Assembly: GCA_902539445.1 (NCBI GenBank)
Contig: CACBIY010000006.1
Coordinates: 1-60,691 of the forward strand
From: an uncultured Pelagibacteraceae bacterium
Lineage (GTDB): Bacteria > Pseudomonadota > Alphaproteobacteria > Pelagibacterales > Pelagibacteraceae
Length of the DNA stretch: 60,691 nt
Direction: 5' to 3'
The notes beneath the pieces were generated by a model. That model had not been told where the DNA came from. It was given only the letters and a program-made list of their open reading frames with translations, and ran no database searches. This document shows, one piece after another, positions 15,860 through 26,528 of the stretch (positions are counted from its first letter, which is position 1; every line of letters begins with the position of its first letter). The position numbers and the translations under genes were made by a program.

Positions 15860-18543
15860 CCAGTATTTTTCATTGCAGCAGAAATACCTGCGATAGAGGT
15901 CAGCAAAGCGTCTTCTAAATATTTTCTATTTTTTTTATCTTTTTTCTTTTTTAATTTGTAAATAACTATTGGCTGAATAATATTTAAAACCTCAGAGTAA
16001 ATATTTCTTGCTAGTACCTTAGATCTAAATTCTTTTCTTATCTTCAAAATTTCTTTAGGAGTAATTTTTTTATTTAATTCCTTTATTGTAGCAAATTGAA
16101 ATCTTAGTTTTTGTCCAACTCTTTGAAGTTTTTTGTCAGCGAGAAACTCCTCATAAATTTTTGAAATTTCTGGATCAGCTTTAGAAATTACCATATCAAG
16201 CATATCAAGCATTGAATTAAAAAAAGGCCAATTTTTTTCCATATCATATAAAGTTTTTCTAAACTGTTTGATATAAGAGTATCTTAATGCTTCTGCACTT
16301 CCTAACCAGGCTGGAAGCATTAATCTGATCTGTGTCCATGCAAACACCCACGGTATTGCTCTTAAACTTTTTATATTATCAACATTTTTTCTTTTTGATG
16401 GTCTTGAACCAATAGATAATTTGCCAAGTGCTTTATGAGGAGTGACAGTCCTAAAATACTCAATAAAATCTGAACTTTGATTTATATTTTTTCTGTATGA
16501 GTTTTTAGAAATGTCAGACATTTTTTCGATTAAGTCTCTCCAATTTTTTTTAGGAATTGGTGGAGGATTTAATGTGGCCTCTGTAACAGCACCAATGTAA
16601 CTACATAAATTATAATTAGCTAAAGGTTCATAGCCATACTTTTGTTGAATTACTTCACCTTGATCAGTAATCCTTATATTGCCATTAACTGAATTAGGAG
16701 GTTGTGACCTTAAAGTAGCCTGTATCGGACCTCCTCCTCTACCAGCTGATCCACCTCTACCATGAAAAAAAGTTACTTTAATCTTAAATTTTTTTGCTAA
16801 TTTTATTATTTCTTCTTGTGCTTTATATTGATGCCAACTAGCACATATTTTTCCAGCATCTTTACTTGAGTCGGAATATCCAATCATTACCTCCTGTTCA
16901 TGATTGATCAGTTTTCTATACCATTTTTGTGAGAACAAGGTTTCCATTATAGATTTTGCATTAATAAGATCATCTAAAGTTTCAAATAAAGGAACTACTC
17001 TTAATTTATTTTTAATATTTGCCTCTTTTTGTAAAAAGGACACAGATAAAATATCAGAAGCAGAGGTGGTCATTGATATTACATATGCACCTAAACACTC
17101 TGGTGGCTCTTTAGATAAAGTGCTAAAAGTTGTCCATACTTCCTTATTCTCTTTATTCTTAAATTGGAAATTTCCAATTTTATTAGATTTAAAAGTTATA
17201 AATTTCTTTAAAAATTTTATTTTTTCTTTCTCAGTAAAATTTGAATAATTTTTTTTAAACTTCGTCTTAACAAACTCAGATATCAATTGTTTATGTCTTG
17301 CAGACTCTTGTCTGATATCTAATCTTGCTAAATTAATCCCAAAACATTTTGCTCGCCTCATTAAGTCTAACAATTCACCACTAGCAATATTCTCATTTTG
17401 ATTTTGCTCTAAAGACTCTCTTACAACTCTTAAAGGTTTAAGAATTTCCTCTCGAGAACTTAATAATTTTTTTTGATCTAACGGCTTATTATGCACCAGA
17501 TGTTGTTCAATAGATCTATGGGTAATTCTCATTTTGTCTCTCAACGGTCTTAAAAAAACTCTATAAGGCTCGAATGATTGACCAACTTTACTTAAGATTT
17601 TTTTTGAAGCCTTTTCCATAGAATAGGATCTTATTATTTTTGTGAGAGCTTTTTCATATAATTTAGCTGCTTCCCATCTAGAAAGTAGAATTACTTTTCT
17701 TGTGACTTCTGAAGTAACATTGGGATTACCATCTCTGTCACCACCCATCCATGAACCAAATACAATAGGATTAAAATTTTTTGGTAAATTTTTACCCATA
17801 TTTTTTACAAATATAGAGTTTAATTTTCTATAAACTTTTGGAACAGTATCCCATAGACTATCTTCAATAATGGCTAATCCCCATCTAGCCTCATCAAATG
17901 GCGATGGTTTAAATCTTTTAAGATCATCCGTATTCCAAATAATTGTCAACTCATCATAAAGATTTTTATCGAGAACTTTTAATTTTGAGGGAAAATTTTT
18001 AAACAATTCTCGCTCTTCAAGTATCTCTATAATCTTGTGATATTTTTGAATTAAAGTTCTTCTTTTTACTTCTGTTGGATGAGCTGTTAAAACAATACCT
18101 ATATTAAGATTTTTAGCTAAATCATAGATCTTATTGTCTGAAATATTTTTTTTTCTAAACAAGTCCTCAAAAATTTCCTCAATAAATAAATTCTTTTTAT
18201 TTAATTTTTTCTTATTATTTTCATTTTCATTAATACTTCTAGAGGCGTCAACTAGCTCAGCTAAATTCATAAAATTCATAAAATGTGAAAATGCTCGAGT
18301 TAATTTGAAAGTATTTTTAGGATCAAGTTTTTTGATTGCGTTAATTACATCACTATTTAGTTTTTTTGAGTTAGGATTGGCTTTATTAGCTTTTGATAAT
18401 TTTCTAACTTTTTCAACTAAATTAAAAAACTTCTGTCCCTCTTGTCCCCTTATTACCTGCCCTAATATGTTTCCTAAATACCTGACATCCTCTCTTAAAA
18501 GTTTTGTAGGAATTCTTTCATAGTAAAGATCTTTTTTTTTCAT
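15856..18543 (-). CDS. ppc: Phosphoenolpyruvate carboxylase
   Basis: Carboxylates PEP to oxaloacetate, replenishing the TCA cycle. The 895-residue protein has VLTAHPTEV with catalytic His155, the GSWMGGDRDGNP block, GYSDSSKDAG, and the FHGRGGSAGRGGGP loop. It ends in the conserved -NTG (here KNTG) that reaches the active site. It sits in a run of four overlapping minus-strand genes (GT-C, GT2, ppc, PL5-like), joined by ATGA overlaps on both sides. That is an odd setting for a central metabolic enzyme. ppdK, also in the window, acts on the same PEP pool. Confidence 0.97.
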   Translation of the reverse strand: MKKKDLYYERIPTKLLREDVRYLGNILGQVIRGQEGQKFFNLVEKVRKLSKANKANPNSKKLNSDVINAIKKLDPKNTFKLTRAFSHFMNFMNLAELVDASRSINENENNKKKLNKKNLFIEEIFEDLFRKKNISDNKIYDLAKNLNIGIVLTAHPTEVKRRTLIQKYHKIIEILEERELFKNFPSKLKVLDKNLYDELTIIWNTDDLKRFKPSPFDEARWGLAIIEDSLWDTVPKVYRKLNSIFVKNMGKNLPKNFNPIVFGSWMGGDRDGNPNVTSEVTRKVILLSRWEAAKLYEKALTKIIRSYSMEKASKKILSKVGQSFEPYRVFLRPLRDKMRITHRSIEQHLVHNKPLDQKKLLSSREEILKPLRVVRESLEQNQNENIASGELLDLMRRAKCFGINLARLDIRQESARHKQLISEFVKTKFKKNYSNFTEKEKIKFLKKFITFKSNKIGNFQFKNKENKEVWTTFSTLSKEPPECLGAYVISMTTSASDILSVSFLQKEANIKNKLRVVPLFETLDDLINAKSIMETLFSQKWYRKLINHEQEVMIGYSDSSKDAGKICASWHQYKAQEEIIKLAKKFKIKVTFFHGRGGSAGRGGGPIQATLRSQPPNSVNGNIRITDQGEVIQQKYGYEPLANYNLCSYIGAVTEATLNPPPIPKKNWRDLIEKMSDISKNSYRKNINQSSDFIEYFRTVTPHKALGKLSIGSRPSKRKNVDNIKSLRAIPWVFAWTQIRLMLPAWLGSAEALRYSYIKQFRKTLYDMEKNWPFFNSMLDMLDMVISKADPEISKIYEEFLADKKLQRVGQKLRFQFATIKELNKKITPKEILKIRKEFRSKVLARNIYSEVLNIIQPIVIYKLKKKKDKKNRKYLEDALLTSIAGISAAMKNTG

Positions 18544-19409
18544 TTAATATTCTCAATATCATTTATTTGGCTTAAACAATTTTTAAATTCTTTCATATTT
18601 TCTCTTAATGCTAAATTTGAGATTGAATAAACAGCTACTAATAAAAAAATGAGAGGTATTGCAGTGATTATTGATGCGTTACTTTTAATCATTAAAATAT
18701 AAATTATTATAAATAATGCAGATCGAATTAAAAAAGTTTTTCTAAACACACTAATAATTGAAAGTGAGTGTTTAACTAGATTGATAAAACTCATTTTTGA
18801 TGGTCCAAAATATCGATTACCTCTAATAGAGGGAATAGAAATTAAGTCATTTTCAATTTTTTTTAATGAACCCGAAAAACTATTCCATGTCGCTTTTTCA
18901 TTAATCATTTTTTCAACGATTGATCTTGGCAAACAAGTATAATTTCCAAACTTTATTGATTTGCTTGTGAATACTAGTGTAAGAAATTTATGTAATTGAT
19001 AGCAAATCTTAAAAATCATCTTTTCAGATCGTTTAATTCTTTCTCCTACAATAGGTTGATTTTGTGATTTTTTTATTTGATCTAAAAAAAATTCAATTTC
19101 CTCAGGTCTATCCTCACCGTCCCCATCCATAGGAATAACATAGTCAAAATTATCTTTTTCAAAAATATACTTTAACCCAGTGGCAATACATCTTGCATGT
19201 CCTTGATTTTTTTTCATATTAAATATCTTTACAGAATTTATATTTTCTAGATTTTTTTCAAAATCAGGACGATCATGATTTGAAAAATCGTTAAATATGT
19301 AAACTGAAATTTCAAATTCTTTATTTAATGACAGGTTATTAATTTCATCGACTAGTTTATATACCGATTGCCAGTCATTATACACCGGGGTCAAAATTAT
19401 TATTTTCAT
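18540..19409 (-). CDS. GT2 family polyprenyl-phosphate glycosyltransferase (DPM1/ArnC-like)
   Basis: The start is set at the ATG at 19409 (KIIILTPVYND follows), since the longer frame would run into the GT-C gene. About 289 residues: an N-terminal GT-A domain with TPVYND, a nucleotide-binding FNDFS, and MDGDGEDRPEE as the metal-binding DxD region. Two hydrophobic C-terminal segments (about residues 222-268) fit the topology of polyprenyl-phosphate sugar synthases such as GtrB and ArnC. It likely charges undecaprenyl phosphate with a sugar that the adjacent GT-C enzyme then transfers. The sugar is unknown. It overlaps ppc by 4 bases. Confidence 0.75.
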   Translation of the reverse strand: MKIIILTPVYNDWQSVYKLVDEINNLSLNKEFEISVYIFNDFSNHDRPDFEKNLENINSVKIFNMKKNQGHARCIATGLKYIFEKDNFDYVIPMDGDGEDRPEEIEFFLDQIKKSQNQPIVGERIKRSEKMIFKICYQLHKFLTLVFTSKSIKFGNYTCLPRSIVEKMINEKATWNSFSGSLKKIENDLISIPSIRGNRYFGPSKMSFINLVKHSLSIISVFRKTFLIRSALFIIIYILMIKSNASIITAIPLIFLLVAVYSISNLALRENMKEFKNCLSQINDIENIK

Positions 19410-19423
19410 AATATAATCAAATT

Positions 19424-20743
19424 TTAGTATCTTCCCAAACAAACATCTTCAACACAAATAAATTGTGATGCATTTTTTAATATCTCACTATTTGTAGATC
19501 CCTCCCAAACAGGTCGTGATTTTAAATGATATGATAAGTTTCCAGCTTTCCATTCGTCTCCAGTGACGAATTGAATTTCTCCATTAAAATCATTACTCCA
19601 AATTAATTGCACTTTAGATGCAATCTCTTTTCCAGGATAGTCGGTTCTTTTATCTGTTTGGGAAATTGAAACGTAAGAATAAATAATTGGTGATAAAAAA
19701 AATAGAAACAAAAATCCATATAAAAAAGAATTTATTTTTTTAACATTTATTTGCGATTTCAAAATGTAGATAAATAGAACCCCAAAATATAAATAAAAGG
19801 GTGTCATCCACATCGTTCTGATTTTAAAACCCATAATCGCAGAAGTAATAAAAATTAGGAAGATGGGTAGTAAGTTTATGACTAATAAAAATAGTAATTT
19901 TTTATCTTTAAAATTAAACTTAAATTGAATTTTTTTTACCAATAACCAAATTAAAAAGAAAAATGGAAGAAGTGTTCCTATTTGTTTAAATAAAAATAAT
20001 ATTGGCTGCTCAAAATGATTTATTAAACTTGGTTCTAAGCCAGTTCTTTTTAAGCCATAAAAAATTGTAATAAAATCATTACCGTATAACCATATAAAAT
20101 GGGGAATTAATAAAATCACAAAAACTTCTAAAGTAATAAAATATTTGAAATCAAATTTTCTATCTTTTTTAATTAATATTACATACATAAAAAGTAGAAA
20201 GATTGATGCTAATAGATATACAAATAAGTACTTTGAGAGAAATCCTATTGCACTAAATAAACCAATTAAAAAACAATCTGATAATTTTATCTCTTTTGAA
20301 GAGTAAATTTTCCATGAAAAATAAACCACTAAAGACCAAAATGGAAGCTGGCATACATTTACATTAAACTCAGGTGTCGTAAAATTATAGAAATAAATTG
20401 CCTCTAAAATTAAAACGGAAAAAAGACTTAATAGTTTGCTTGATAAAATCTCATCAGCGACTTTAAAAACAAAATAAAAAGAAATCACCACAAATAATGA
20501 GCTTAAGAAATAATATGCCCAATCCTGTGCACCAAATATCTGAAAAAAAATTTCTGGAAAAAATGCACTTCCAGGTGGATGTTTATTAAAACCCCAGTCT
20601 AAATTGCTGCCCCACGCTAATGCTTCGATGACATCTAGGGGTAGATTTTTATTGGTTATTGTAGGAACAACCGTCCAAATTAATAAATGTGATAAAACAA
20701 AAATAAAAAATATATTATTTATATTTCTATTTAAACTGATCAT
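19424..20743 (-). CDS. GT-C membrane glycosyltransferase (ArnT/PMT-like)
   Basis: 439 residues with about ten hydrophobic helices and a first periplasmic loop containing LDVIEALAWGSNLDWGFNKHPPGSAFF. Its Asp/Glu and HPPG features are those of dolichyl-phosphate-mannose-type and ArnT-type transferases (GT39/GT83, PMT_2 fold). These use a polyprenyl-phosphate sugar as donor on the outer face of the inner membrane. The next gene encodes the matching donor synthase, 14 bases downstream. The acceptor (lipid A, other lipid or protein) cannot be told. Confidence 0.8.
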   Translation of the reverse strand: MISLNRNINNIFFIFVLSHLLIWTVVPTITNKNLPLDVIEALAWGSNLDWGFNKHPPGSAFFPEIFFQIFGAQDWAYYFLSSLFVVISFYFVFKVADEILSSKLLSLFSVLILEAIYFYNFTTPEFNVNVCQLPFWSLVVYFSWKIYSSKEIKLSDCFLIGLFSAIGFLSKYLFVYLLASIFLLFMYVILIKKDRKFDFKYFITLEVFVILLIPHFIWLYGNDFITIFYGLKRTGLEPSLINHFEQPILFLFKQIGTLLPFFFLIWLLVKKIQFKFNFKDKKLLFLLVINLLPIFLIFITSAIMGFKIRTMWMTPFYLYFGVLFIYILKSQINVKKINSFLYGFLFLFFLSPIIYSYVSISQTDKRTDYPGKEIASKVQLIWSNDFNGEIQFVTGDEWKAGNLSYHLKSRPVWEGSTNSEILKNASQFICVEDVCLGRY

Positions 20744-20772: not shown

Positions 20773-20800
20773 TTGACACCCATATTTTGCTGAATATACT
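20773..20800 (+). promoter_or_regulatory. Sigma-70 promoter of dksA
   Basis: A perfect TTGACA (20773-20778) and TATACT (20795-20800) stand 16 bases apart, the best consensus promoter seen in the window. Transcription would begin near 20806. This excludes the upstream in-frame TTG at 20769 and supports the ATG at 20823 as the dksA start. Confidence 0.75.
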
Positions 20801-20822: not shown

Positions 20823-21377
20823 ATGGCTAAATCCAGCAAAGTTAAAAAAAAAGTTGTAAAAGCAAAGAATAAAACTGCCAGTAAAAATAAAGTTAAGACA
20901 GCTGCTAAAAAGTCAGCAGTAAAAACTACAGTAGCTAAAATTAAAGAGACAATTAAAGGTCCAATTAAAATTTCCAAAACTTATATTCCAAAGGATACTG
21001 AAAAATATATGTGCGAGAAACACAAAGTATTTTTTAGAATGAAGCTTCAAGAGTGGAGAAAAGATTTAGTAAGAGCAAACAATGAAGCTCTTTATAATGG
21101 AAGTTTAGATGATAATAGCATTTCAGCAGATATTGTAGATCAGGCGAGCTCCTACACTGATAAAAATGTTGAGATGAAAGCTATTAATAGGCAAATTAAA
21201 CTCATTTCAGAAATAGATAAAGCACTAGCAAGAATTAGAGAAGATACTTATGGATACTGTCTTGATACAGCAGAACCGATTGGGCTAAAAAGACTCATGG
21301 CGAGACCTGTCGCTAAGTATACTATTGCTGCACAGGAAAAACATGAAAAGGATGAAAAGGTTCACGCTGATGACTAA
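20823..21377 (+). CDS. dksA: DksA-family RNA polymerase regulator with degenerate zinc site
   Basis: 184 residues from the ATG at 20823. Residues 1-55 are a Lys/Ala/Thr-rich extension absent from E. coli DksA. The coiled coil follows, with tip motif DIVDQA (Asp103, Asp106, Ala108) aligned to the E. coli residues needed to act in the polymerase secondary channel. At the zinc finger only Cys146 remains; the other three positions are Thr149, Thr167 and Ala170. A single-cysteine DksA is known from other alphaproteobacteria. The protein would work with ppGpp to adjust promoter output. Its 3' end overlaps a small membrane ORF. Confidence 0.92.
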   Translation: MAKSSKVKKKVVKAKNKTASKNKVKTAAKKSAVKTTVAKIKETIKGPIKISKTYIPKDTEKYMCEKHKVFFRMKLQEWRKDLVRANNEALYNGSLDDNSISADIVDQASSYTDKNVEMKAINRQIKLISEIDKALARIREDTYGYCLDTAEPIGLKRLMARPVAKYTIAAQEKHEKDEKVHADD

Positions 21378-21495
21378 AAAAAAGAAAAAAACTAAAAAAG
21401 TTCATAATCCCGTAACTTATTATTTTACTAAAAAGTATATATATTATTATTATGGTTTGTTTTGGATAGTTTTGTTATTTATTGTTTTTAGTTAA
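21370..21495 (+). CDS. Small lysine-rich single-pass membrane protein, 41 residues
   Basis: An open frame starting ATG at 21370, 8 bases inside the end of dksA, preceded by AAAAGG at 21355-21360 (9-base spacing). The first ten residues are MTKKKKKTKK. A polar patch follows, then a Tyr-rich stretch and a hydrophobic helix GLFWIVLLFIVFS at the C-terminus. It reads as an N-in single transmembrane micro-protein. The overlaps with dksA and with the next small frame (TAATG) argue for translation. I do not recognise a family. Confidence 0.55.
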   Translation: MTKKKKKTKKVHNPVTYYFTKKYIYYYYGLFWIVLLFIVFS

Positions 21496-21599
21496 TGGAT
21501 ACGAAAATACTTTTGATAATTATCATTGTCCTCGCTATAGAGGTTTCGGGTCATGGAATTTTTGCTTCATTGTTTAGATTACTAAGTTCAATGAGCTAA
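21495..21599 (+). CDS. Small hydrophobic protein, 34 residues
   Basis: Starts at the ATG whose A is the last base of the preceding stop (TAATG), so it would depend on coupled translation. The sequence begins MDTKILLIIIIVLAIEVSGH and continues with a short amphipathic tail; residues 4-16 are a membrane-spanning stretch. Its TAA shares bases with the TAG of the convergent GST gene in a four-base CTAA overlap. That is the same geometry as other convergent real genes here (38610, 40349, 47848). No family is recognised. Confidence 0.45.
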   Translation: MDTKILLIIIIVLAIEVSGHGIFASLFRLLSSMS

Positions 21600-22225
21600 T
21601 ATGGTTTAGGTGGTACCTCATTTTCATCTATAAAAGCAAATCCCTTTTTAACACCATCTCTTTTTGAAATTTCGTCATACCATCTGGTAAGATTTTTATA
21701 ATTTTTAAGACCAATATCATGCCACTCATGTCTTGCTATCCATGGAAATGTTCCAATATCTGCAATAGTGTAATTGTTACCTGATAAATATTTTGATTTG
21801 GACAATCTCTCGTCCAATTCTTTGTATATTCGTTTAGAAATTTTAAAATACCTTTCCTCACCAAATTTACTTTTTCCAGGATTATAATGATGGAATTGAT
21901 GGTGTTGGCCTAACATTGGGCCAACATAACCCATTTGAGCCATAAGCCATTGGTTTATTTCTAATCTTTCTTCAGAATTATAAAATTTTCCACTTAACTC
22001 AGCTAAATAAATCAAGATTGCTCCAGACTCAAAGACCGTTTTTTTATTTTTATGATCAATAATTACTGGAATTTTACTTAATGGACTTATTTTTTTGAAC
22101 TCATCTTTAAATTGTTCACCGTTATTAATATCAACTTTGATTACTTTGTAATCAAATCCAATTTCCTCAAGCATAATACTAATTTTTTTGCCATTAGGTG
22201 TATTAGCTGAGTAAAGATCTATCAC
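21596..22225 (-). CDS. Glutathione S-transferase, YfcG/nu-class-like
   Basis: 209 residues. The N-terminal thioredoxin-like domain begins MIDLYSANTPNGKKISIMLE, the Thr-Pro-Asn start of the YfcG/Ure2p-like class that has disulfide-bond reductase activity. SPLSKIPVI supplies the cis-proline, and ESGAILIYLAE is the Glu-Ser glutathione-binding motif. The C-terminal helical domain includes NYTIADIGTFPWIARH. It is the last gene of the proteorhodopsin-ferredoxin-reductase group and overlaps the reductase by 4 bases, hinting at thiol redox handling. Substrate unknown. Confidence 0.9.
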   Translation of the reverse strand: MIDLYSANTPNGKKISIMLEEIGFDYKVIKVDINNGEQFKDEFKKISPLSKIPVIIDHKNKKTVFESGAILIYLAELSGKFYNSEERLEINQWLMAQMGYVGPMLGQHHQFHHYNPGKSKFGEERYFKISKRIYKELDERLSKSKYLSGNNYTIADIGTFPWIARHEWHDIGLKNYKNLTRWYDEISKRDGVKKGFAFIDENEVPPKPY

Positions 22226-24626: not shown

Positions 24627-26528
24627 ATGTCAGATAAACTCAAGGAAATTTATAGAAAATCAATTGAAGATCCAGAGAATTTCTGGAAAGAGGCATCTGA
24701 CGATATATTTTGGTTTAAAAAACCCTCAAAAATTTTAAACAAATCAAACCCTCCTTTCTACAAATGGTTTGAGGACGGGGTTACAAACACTTGCTACAAT
24801 GCATTAGATGTTCATATTGACAATGGTCAAGGTAAGAAAACTGCACTAATTTATGATAGTCCCATTACAGGTAACAAAAGTAAACTAACATATGAGGAAT
24901 TAAGATCAAAAGTTTCTAAATTTGCAGGAGCACTAACAAATCAAGGCGTTGGTAAGGGTGATAGAGTTATAATTTATATGCCAATGATCCCAGAAGCAGT
25001 CATTGCAATGCTTGCTTGTGGACGAATTGGAGCAATTCACTCAGTTGTTTTTGGTGGATTTGCATCAAATGAACTTGCAAGCAGGATAGATGACAGCAAA
25101 GCTAAAATTCTAGTCACCGCATCATGTGGTTTTGAGCCAGGTAGAACGGTTGAATACAAGCCATTAGTAGATGAAGCAGTCAAACTAGCAAGTCATAAGA
25201 TAAGTAAGATGATTTTATTTCAAAGAAAAGGTTATGAGGCTAAATTAAATGCGCCTAATGAAATTAGTTGGGATGAGGCACTAGCTAATGCAAAAGATAC
25301 TGACTGCGTGGAGATGAATTCAAATGAGTTTGCTTACATACTCTATACCTCAGGCACAACAGGAACACCTAAGGGAATTGTAAGAGATATTGGGGGTCAT
25401 ATTGTAGCTTTAAAATGGACCATGAAAAATATCTATAACATTGATGAAGGAGATATCTGGTGGTCTGCTAGTGATATTGGTTGGATTGTTGGTCATTCTT
25501 ATATTGTTTACGCTCCTTTATTTAAAGGATGCACAACAGTTTTGTTTGAAGGTAAACCAGTAGGCACGCCTGATGCGGGGGCTTTCTGGAAAATCATTTC
25601 TGATTATAAAGTGAAATCTTTATTTACAGCTCCAACAGCATTTAGAGCAATTAAAAAAGAAGATCCTGATGGAAAGTTCTTCTCTAAATATGATCTTAGT
25701 AGTTTTAAAAGTTTATTTCTTGCTGGTGAAAGAGCAGATCCAGATACAATCAAGTGGGCAGAAAATTTATTAAAAGTTCCAGTGATAGACCATTGGTGGC
25801 AAACTGAAACAAGTTGGGCAATAAGCTCAAATTGCACAGGAATTGAAATGATGAAAACAAAATATGGTTCAGCCTGTAAAGCAGTGCCAGGTTATGATGT
25901 AAAAATTATTAAGTCAGATCAAACTTTAGCTAAACCAAACGAAATGGGCGATATTGTAGTTAAATTGCCTTTACCTCCTGGTACATTTCCAACTCTTTGG
26001 AATGCAGATCAAAGATACAAGGAAAATTATATGTCAAACTATGATGGTTACTATCAAACTTATGATGCAGGTCATATTGACGAGGATGGCTATATCTGGA
26101 TTATGTCTAGGACTGACGACATTATAAATGTTGCTGGCCATAGATTGTCAACTGGTGCCATTGAAGAAGTTTTATCTGAACATCAATCAGTAGCTGAATG
26201 TGCAGTTCTTGGTATTGCAGATAAATTAAAGGGACAATTACCAATAGGATTAATAGTTTTAAAAGCTGGAGTTGATAAAGATAACGAAACAATTTCAAAG
26301 GAATGTATTAAAATGGTTAGAGATAAAATTGGTCCTGTGGCTGCATTTAAAGTTGCAATTGTTATCAAAAGGCTTCCAAAAACAAGATCTGGAAAAATTT
26401 TAAGAGGAACAATTAGAAAAATTGCTGATAATGTTGAATATAAAATGCCTCCAACAATTGATGATCCTGCAATTCTTGATGAGATCAAACAAGACTTGAT
26501 TGAAAATAAAATACTTAATAATGGTTAA
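24627..26528 (+). CDS. prpE: Propionyl-CoA synthetase-like acyl-CoA ligase
   Basis: 633-residue AMP-forming ligase. It contains the AMP-binding signature YILYTSGTTGTPKGIVRDIGG, ASDIGWIVGHSYIVYAPL, DHWWQTETSWAI, and the C-terminal RTDDIINVAGHRLSTGAIEE hinge and KTRSGKILRGTIRKI with the catalytic Lys that is acetylated in this family. The IVRDIGGH and SDIGWIVGHSYIVY stretches resemble PrpE more than acetyl-CoA synthetase, whose length and tetrad otherwise match, so propionate is the favoured substrate and acetate cannot be excluded. No methylcitrate or propionyl-CoA carboxylase genes are adjacent. It overlaps the SMR gene by 8 bases. Confidence 0.8.
   Translation: MSDKLKEIYRKSIEDPENFWKEASDDIFWFKKPSKILNKSNPPFYKWFEDGVTNTCYNALDVHIDNGQGKKTALIYDSPITGNKSKLTYEELRSKVSKFAGALTNQGVGKGDRVIIYMPMIPEAVIAMLACGRIGAIHSVVFGGFASNELASRIDDSKAKILVTASCGFEPGRTVEYKPLVDEAVKLASHKISKMILFQRKGYEAKLNAPNEISWDEALANAKDTDCVEMNSNEFAYILYTSGTTGTPKGIVRDIGGHIVALKWTMKNIYNIDEGDIWWSASDIGWIVGHSYIVYAPLFKGCTTVLFEGKPVGTPDAGAFWKIISDYKVKSLFTAPTAFRAIKKEDPDGKFFSKYDLSSFKSLFLAGERADPDTIKWAENLLKVPVIDHWWQTETSWAISSNCTGIEMMKTKYGSACKAVPGYDVKIIKSDQTLAKPNEMGDIVVKLPLPPGTFPTLWNADQRYKENYMSNYDGYYQTYDAGHIDEDGYIWIMSRTDDIINVAGHRLSTGAIEEVLSEHQSVAECAVLGIADKLKGQLPIGLIVLKAGVDKDNETISKECIKMVRDKIGPVAAFKVAIVIKRLPKTRSGKILRGTIRKIADNVEYKMPPTIDDPAILDEIKQDLIENKILNNG

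Follow-up and report, generated by a model that had tools for sequence, protein, structure and literature searches.

Some bacterial membrane complexes have small accessory subunits, such as CydX, KdpF, and CcoQ. The two micro-proteins analyzed here, encoded by sORF1 and sORF2, resemble such subunits in length (<50 residues), in having a predicted hydrophobic helix, and in being often coupled to a neighboring gene but, unlike them, are not bound to one operon and have no Pfam match. The aa3 oxidase subunit IV family PF07835 (COX4_pro_2), a short, one-helix alphaproteobacterial protein, is also similar in its shortness and helix. Nevertheless, none of 18 sORF1 and 28 sORF2 members matched its profile, and this candidate was rejected; a separate PF07835 protein was found in 17 of 21 SAR11 genomes (G000:C14 in the genome analyzed here), which makes it unlikely that either micro-protein is oxidase subunit IV. 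Judged by sequence, the micro-proteins appear to belong to the bacterial small membrane proteins, which are a class and not a homologous family, and to no known family among those tested; each is encoded by a frame of <50 codons under protein-level selection.

The window (the whole 60,691-nucleotide stretch of DNA that was analyzed) comes from a genome of 1.10 Mb in 24 contigs belonging to SAR11, a group whose cells are some of the most abundant in the sea and whose genome is extremely streamlined. On the plus strand, dksA (positions 20823 to 21377) is followed by sORF1 (21370 to 21495; 41 residues) and sORF2 (21495 to 21599; 34 residues), both with an ATG start. A GST-like gene (21596 to 22225), matched best in NCBIfam by GSH-dependent disulfide bond oxidoreductase but under its cutoff, lies convergently on the minus strand. 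The original prediction that these two frames tile the gap left by dksA and the GST gene, overlapping by 8, 1, and 4 bases in turn, is exact to the base: the first overlap ends with the dksA stop codon (21375 to 21377), the junction of the two frames reads TAATG, and the GST gene ends at 21596. The MTKKKKKTKK start of sORF1 and the SD-like AAAAGG that it pointed out are likewise present, the latter at 21355 to 21360 on the plus strand, within dksA codons and 9 bases ahead of the sORF1 ATG. It also held that ordinary gene-calling length limits would miss such frames; the usual limit of Prodigal is 90 bases, and both sORF1 and sORF2 are longer. A promoter-like sequence before dksA (TTGACA-16-TATACT, 11/12, plus strand, 20773 to 20800) is a possible source of a dksA-sORF1-sORF2 transcript, although the region has no more promoter-like hits (5) than its shuffles (5.9).

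sORF1 and sORF2 are protein genes under frame-specific purifying selection. A search for dksA across 201 genomes of the window's genus gave matches in 158 genomes; 90 dksA loci were read (the 30 best matches and 60 chosen among the others, with the window's own locus included). Both frames are intact at 60 of these loci, sORF2 alone is present at 1 (L192), and neither frame is present at 29. Among the copies recruited through dksA, the median pairwise dN/dS in frame is 0.159 for sORF1 (59 unique sequences, 31 proteins) and 0.198 for sORF2 (61 unique sequences, 41 proteins); the other forward frames gave 0.95 and 1.83 for sORF1 and 0.74 and 3.47 for sORF2. The calculation was repeated on dksA-recruited loci because the first set had been recruited by protein profiles; that larger set, from which L032, L075, and L159 were left out (one residue off the anchor pattern), gave 0.114 for sORF1 and 0.152 for sORF2. 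The last 60 codons of dksA have a dN/dS of 0.036, and the micro-proteins are thus less constrained than DksA yet clearly constrained. One reverse frame per gene also had a low dN/dS (0.33 for sORF1 and 0.28 for sORF2), which is taken as reflecting shared variable positions; it is broken by stops in 101 of 101 sORF1 copies and in 80 of 111 sORF2 copies. The original prediction of real, tightly packed genes for membrane micro-proteins is therefore borne out by codon selection and by the intact frames, with the membrane part remaining a prediction, and the comparison it had proposed, a search of close relatives for frameshifts, stops, or missing codon constraint, came out in favor of genes. Two short, AT-rich frames lying between convergent genes might suggest that the region is instead spacer DNA or serves as an RNA element or a terminator. 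Such a reading is already contradicted by the frame-specific selection and by the occurrence of the same proteins at other sites, and between 20700 and 21800 there is neither an Rfam match nor a terminator-like site; we regard it as practically untenable.

Both sORF1 and sORF2 are predicted to encode membrane micro-proteins, hydropathy and AlphaFold helices favoring a membrane-spanning helix in each, with the caveat that the hydrophobic helix of sORF2 spans only 15 residues and contains a Glu. The invariant residues in an alignment of 18 sORF1 rows are M, F, K, I, Y, Y, W, and L, in the region of FxKKYIxYYYxFFWxxL, and the model has a single helix at residues 14 to 40 (mean pLDDT, 78). The alignment of 28 sORF2 rows has invariant I15, E16, S18, G19, G21, and I22, with I22 replaced by F or M in two loci read later (L282 and L288); helices are modeled at residues 3 to 17 and 22 to 33, with a break at SGHG (mean pLDDT, 91). 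One hydrophobic helix had been proposed for each protein, which fits sORF1 but not sORF2, where two helices are modeled. Under the positive-inside rule, by which Lys-rich ends are read as a topology signal, these ends suggest an N-in topology. In the sORF1 product, the Lys-rich N-terminal tail is probably cytoplasmic, and one helix is predicted at the C terminus. In that of sORF2, a hydrophobic helix of limited length is predicted to be followed by a turn with the conserved motif ExSGxG (in longer form, IExSGxGI) and by an amphipathic helix.

Searches of known families gave no match above curated cutoffs, either for the window copies in NCBIfam or for the window copies and the 18 sORF1 and 28 sORF2 members in Pfam (E values up to 10). 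Weak matches to Renin_r (at most 5 of 18 members; best E, 0.041) and YobH (3 of 28 members; best E, 0.02) and one hit to Lysis_col (E, 0.0019) were rejected. PDB profiles gave no match for sORF1 and, for sORF2, just 11 residues of xanthan lyase (E, 0.28). Small, hydrophobic proteins with a patchy distribution over many sites might also be type I toxin-like or holin-like peptides. Their starts, however, are embedded in host genes, the ExSGxG motif is conserved under purifying selection, and viral contigs yielded 213 and 165 pattern stretches of which none was confirmed as a relative, a result that does not point to phage peptides. For an antisense RNA, the locus was compared with Rfam, which gave no match. 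A toxin or holin is quite improbable. GMSC, a global small-ORF catalogue drawn from metagenomes and genomes and reaching down to ORFs of 30 bases, may contain these frames without a function, and the words "SAR11" and "Pelagibacter" are absent from its main text (PMC11364881). A literature search, which covered few subscription papers and is hence no proof of unpublished status, returned nothing on these genes.

Start geometry was compared across 130 nonredundant loci in which the pair stands in tandem behind dksA. The sORF1 start nearest its helix is at −7, giving the 8-base overlap, in 106 loci; the −7 codon is ACG in 8 loci, where an alternative in-frame ATG is available (5 at −13 and 3 behind the dksA stop). 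The sORF2 ATG is offset from the sORF1 stop by −3 in 81 loci, 0 in 39, +1 in 9, and −15 in 1, so that 120 of the 130 have a 4-base or 1-base overlap between this ATG and the stop. The end of dksA itself differs between loci with and without the pair: an ATG is found in the last nine bases in 122/130 versus 15/34, the final codon is GAC in 111/130 versus 3/35, and AAG is the Lys codon at the AAGG-forming position in 51/130 versus 1/35 (5 of these 35 are out of register), all three comparisons being uncorrected for kinship. Over the preceding 40 dksA codons of loci with the pair, AAG encodes 66 of 399 Lys residues. In the window's clade, dksA is the probable host transcript, and the pair would be read from it by stop-start coupling, first through the ATG within the dksA end and then through TAATG or ATGA. 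At two loci (L192 and L292), sORF1 is absent and sORF2 is directly behind dksA; the L192 sORF2 ATG is eight bases inside the dksA end, at the sORF1 start position of other loci.

The two families differ in breadth. sORF2 matched in 130 of 247 family genomes, in 7 of 14 genera, and sORF1 matched in 62 of the 247, with 53 firm matches confined to three genera (g1, g10, and g14) and 9 weak ones (E, 6e-4 to 0.0095). The best 80 of 253 sORF1 relatives in named records are all from Pelagibacteraceae, Pelagibacterales, or Candidatus Pelagibacter, which places the window in SAR11. A sample of the class gave sORF2 matches in 3 of 289 genomes, two of which belong to the window's genus; the third, 16 residues inside a 142-residue frame (E, 0.006), is taken as chance. 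In the sister family f2, sORF2 was found in 0 of 53 genomes, a search without a positive control whose empty answer alone shows nothing, and sORF1 gave two weak, partial matches (E, 0.003 and 0.005). As far as these searches reach, both families appear to be found only in SAR11, with nothing convincing outside Pelagibacteraceae. Four genomes that are 99 to 100% complete (G012, G082, G217, and G226) have no significant match to either family, and neither gene is therefore essential to, or universal in, SAR11.

Neighboring genes were annotated from one member per neighbor cluster, in rows picked to sample sites, so that the following counts are not frequencies. The 24 sORF1 rows lie before arginase (11), behind dksA (6), behind PhyH (2), beside SDR (2), behind CarB (1), or elsewhere (2). 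Among 57 sORF2 rows (one genome twice), 12 lie between PMT-like and GT2 genes and 7 behind dksA; further sites are behind DctM, behind a 300-residue sigma-70-family factor (which we take for RpoH), behind glutathione peroxidase, behind CarB, beside FTHFS, and in a position flanked by genes for an M24 peptidase and a deacetylase-family protein, among others. When contexts with a common neighbor are merged, 12 sORF2 sites and 5 sORF1 sites remain, one of the 5 being a weak match. Homologues of the PMT-like and GT2 genes that enclose sORF2 in L092, L109, and L110 are present in the window at 18540 to 20743, with no sORF2 between them. A 41-residue frame at another site, MVKVKKKEVKTAAKALSSWKKMMPFYYGAVWVILLLIVFLK (L285), has a weak sORF1 likeness (E, 6e-5) and may be a diverged copy.

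This distribution bears on the original prediction of micro-proteins linked to the stringent response. In one such reading, they would act with DksA, e.g., as a membrane tether or in the answer to starvation. The pair does follow dksA at 60 of 90 dksA loci, and the last codons of dksA fit the sORF1 start. Against this, dksA occurs without the pair at 29 of the 90, the families occupy sites that share no neighbor, both genes stand elsewhere in related genomes, and dksA is present in G012 and G082, where neither gene was detected and dksA directly adjoins the GST gene. At 17 of the 29 loci with neither frame, dksA adjoins the GST gene (gap of 0 to 21 bases by BLAST ends); 10 of the other 12 have a frame of at least 60 codons starting within 52 bases of dksA, and in the remaining two (L219 and L230) the next such frame starts at 141 and 178 bases. 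Linkage to dksA is thus not conserved, and a stringent-response role is improbable. The two genes behind dksA look more like a pair that roams than like a component of the stringent response; the dksA link is confined to one part of the genus, and tight overlap with a neighboring gene does not amount to a shared pathway. A fusion to DksA via a frameshift is also not favored, as sORF1 occurs elsewhere without dksA.

The two genes tend to occur together. Among 76 genomes of the window's genus, 49 hold both, 3 only sORF1, 11 only sORF2, and 13 neither (Fisher P, 5e-6, uncorrected for kinship). These are the window-genus rows of the sORF1 and sORF2 family searches taken as one sample, with G371, a weak sORF1 match, counted as present; sORF2 absences refer to a narrower profile, and 7 of the 16 were searched again with a wider one, which did not find sORF2 in the 3 sORF1-only genomes (a partial match in G141 had an E value of 0.17). 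All g4 genomes holding sORF2 are without a firm sORF1.

The tandem order sORF1-sORF2 occurs at two unrelated sites, beside the GST gene (usually with dksA) and beside CarB. In a tree of one gene, the synthetase-like gene at 24627 to 26528, all genomes with the tandem at the GST site fall in one starred clade of 14 rows, of which 8 have the tandem, 4 have neither gene, 1 has only sORF2 (G411), and 1 has the genes apart (G373). In G235 and G155, the tandem is at the GST site and dksA is not directly before it, G235 having no dksA in the 3.1 kb seen. The genome with the CarB tandem (G243) falls in another starred clade, whose 8 rows show the two genes either apart or single, and forcing G243 together with the GST-site clade was rejected (AU P, 0.0045, for a group chosen after the tree had been seen). 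The G243 sORF1 shares 65% identity with an arginase-site copy and 49% with the window copy. In other lineages, sORF1 precedes arginase and sORF2 lies between PMT and GT2 genes. Most simply, two genes that stand apart elsewhere would have been joined twice; alternatively, a ready-made pair may have been transferred.

On balance, we lean toward the micro-proteins being partners in a single small membrane assembly, encoded by genes that roam and pair up anew and whose link to dksA concerns only local expression. Most likely, the two would assemble together, or side by side on a larger membrane protein of the SAR11 envelope, which they would stabilize or tune as accessory subunits, and the dksA transcript would be merely a local source of expression. 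A more specific form of this proposal is held more tentatively and is somewhat less probable than not: that the two proteins (each ∼31 to 44 residues) form a SAR11-specific membrane module whose genes roam singly into gene gaps, often with an overlap of a few bases, and have been coupled at least twice because the proteins form one assembly on an envelope complex. They may instead be small membrane proteins that are unrelated, serve separate functions, and merely collect in the same gaps of a streamlined genome, as might be expected from the presence of sORF2 without sORF1 in g4 and other genera, from the separate sites of each family, and from the two dksA loci with sORF2 alone. The co-occurrence and the recurrence of the tandem in separate clades, at two sites unrelated to each other, make this reading doubtful, although it deserves more weight than the other alternatives. 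Two proteins of ∼40 residues that selection retains and that recur at many sites in so abundant and streamlined a group point to a new, useful membrane function.

Several minor observations concern the surroundings of the pair. In L097 and L098, the pair stays by the GST gene and dksA is ∼5 kb away; of the intervening genes, a PhyH-like one immediately precedes sORF1. The N-terminal tail of the window's DksA is rich in Lys and Ala (∼45 residues, 20823 to 21000), and many DksA relatives in the genus align only from a point at about residues 43 to 48 onward. The pair is absent behind dksA in L233 and L236 to L251, which have such matches; L193 matches DksA from residue 44 yet has the pair, and its dksA reaches the contig end. 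The C4 zinc finger of DksA looks degenerate, with a single Cys (YGYC) in 21240 to 21330, and its match to the Pfam finger family remains.
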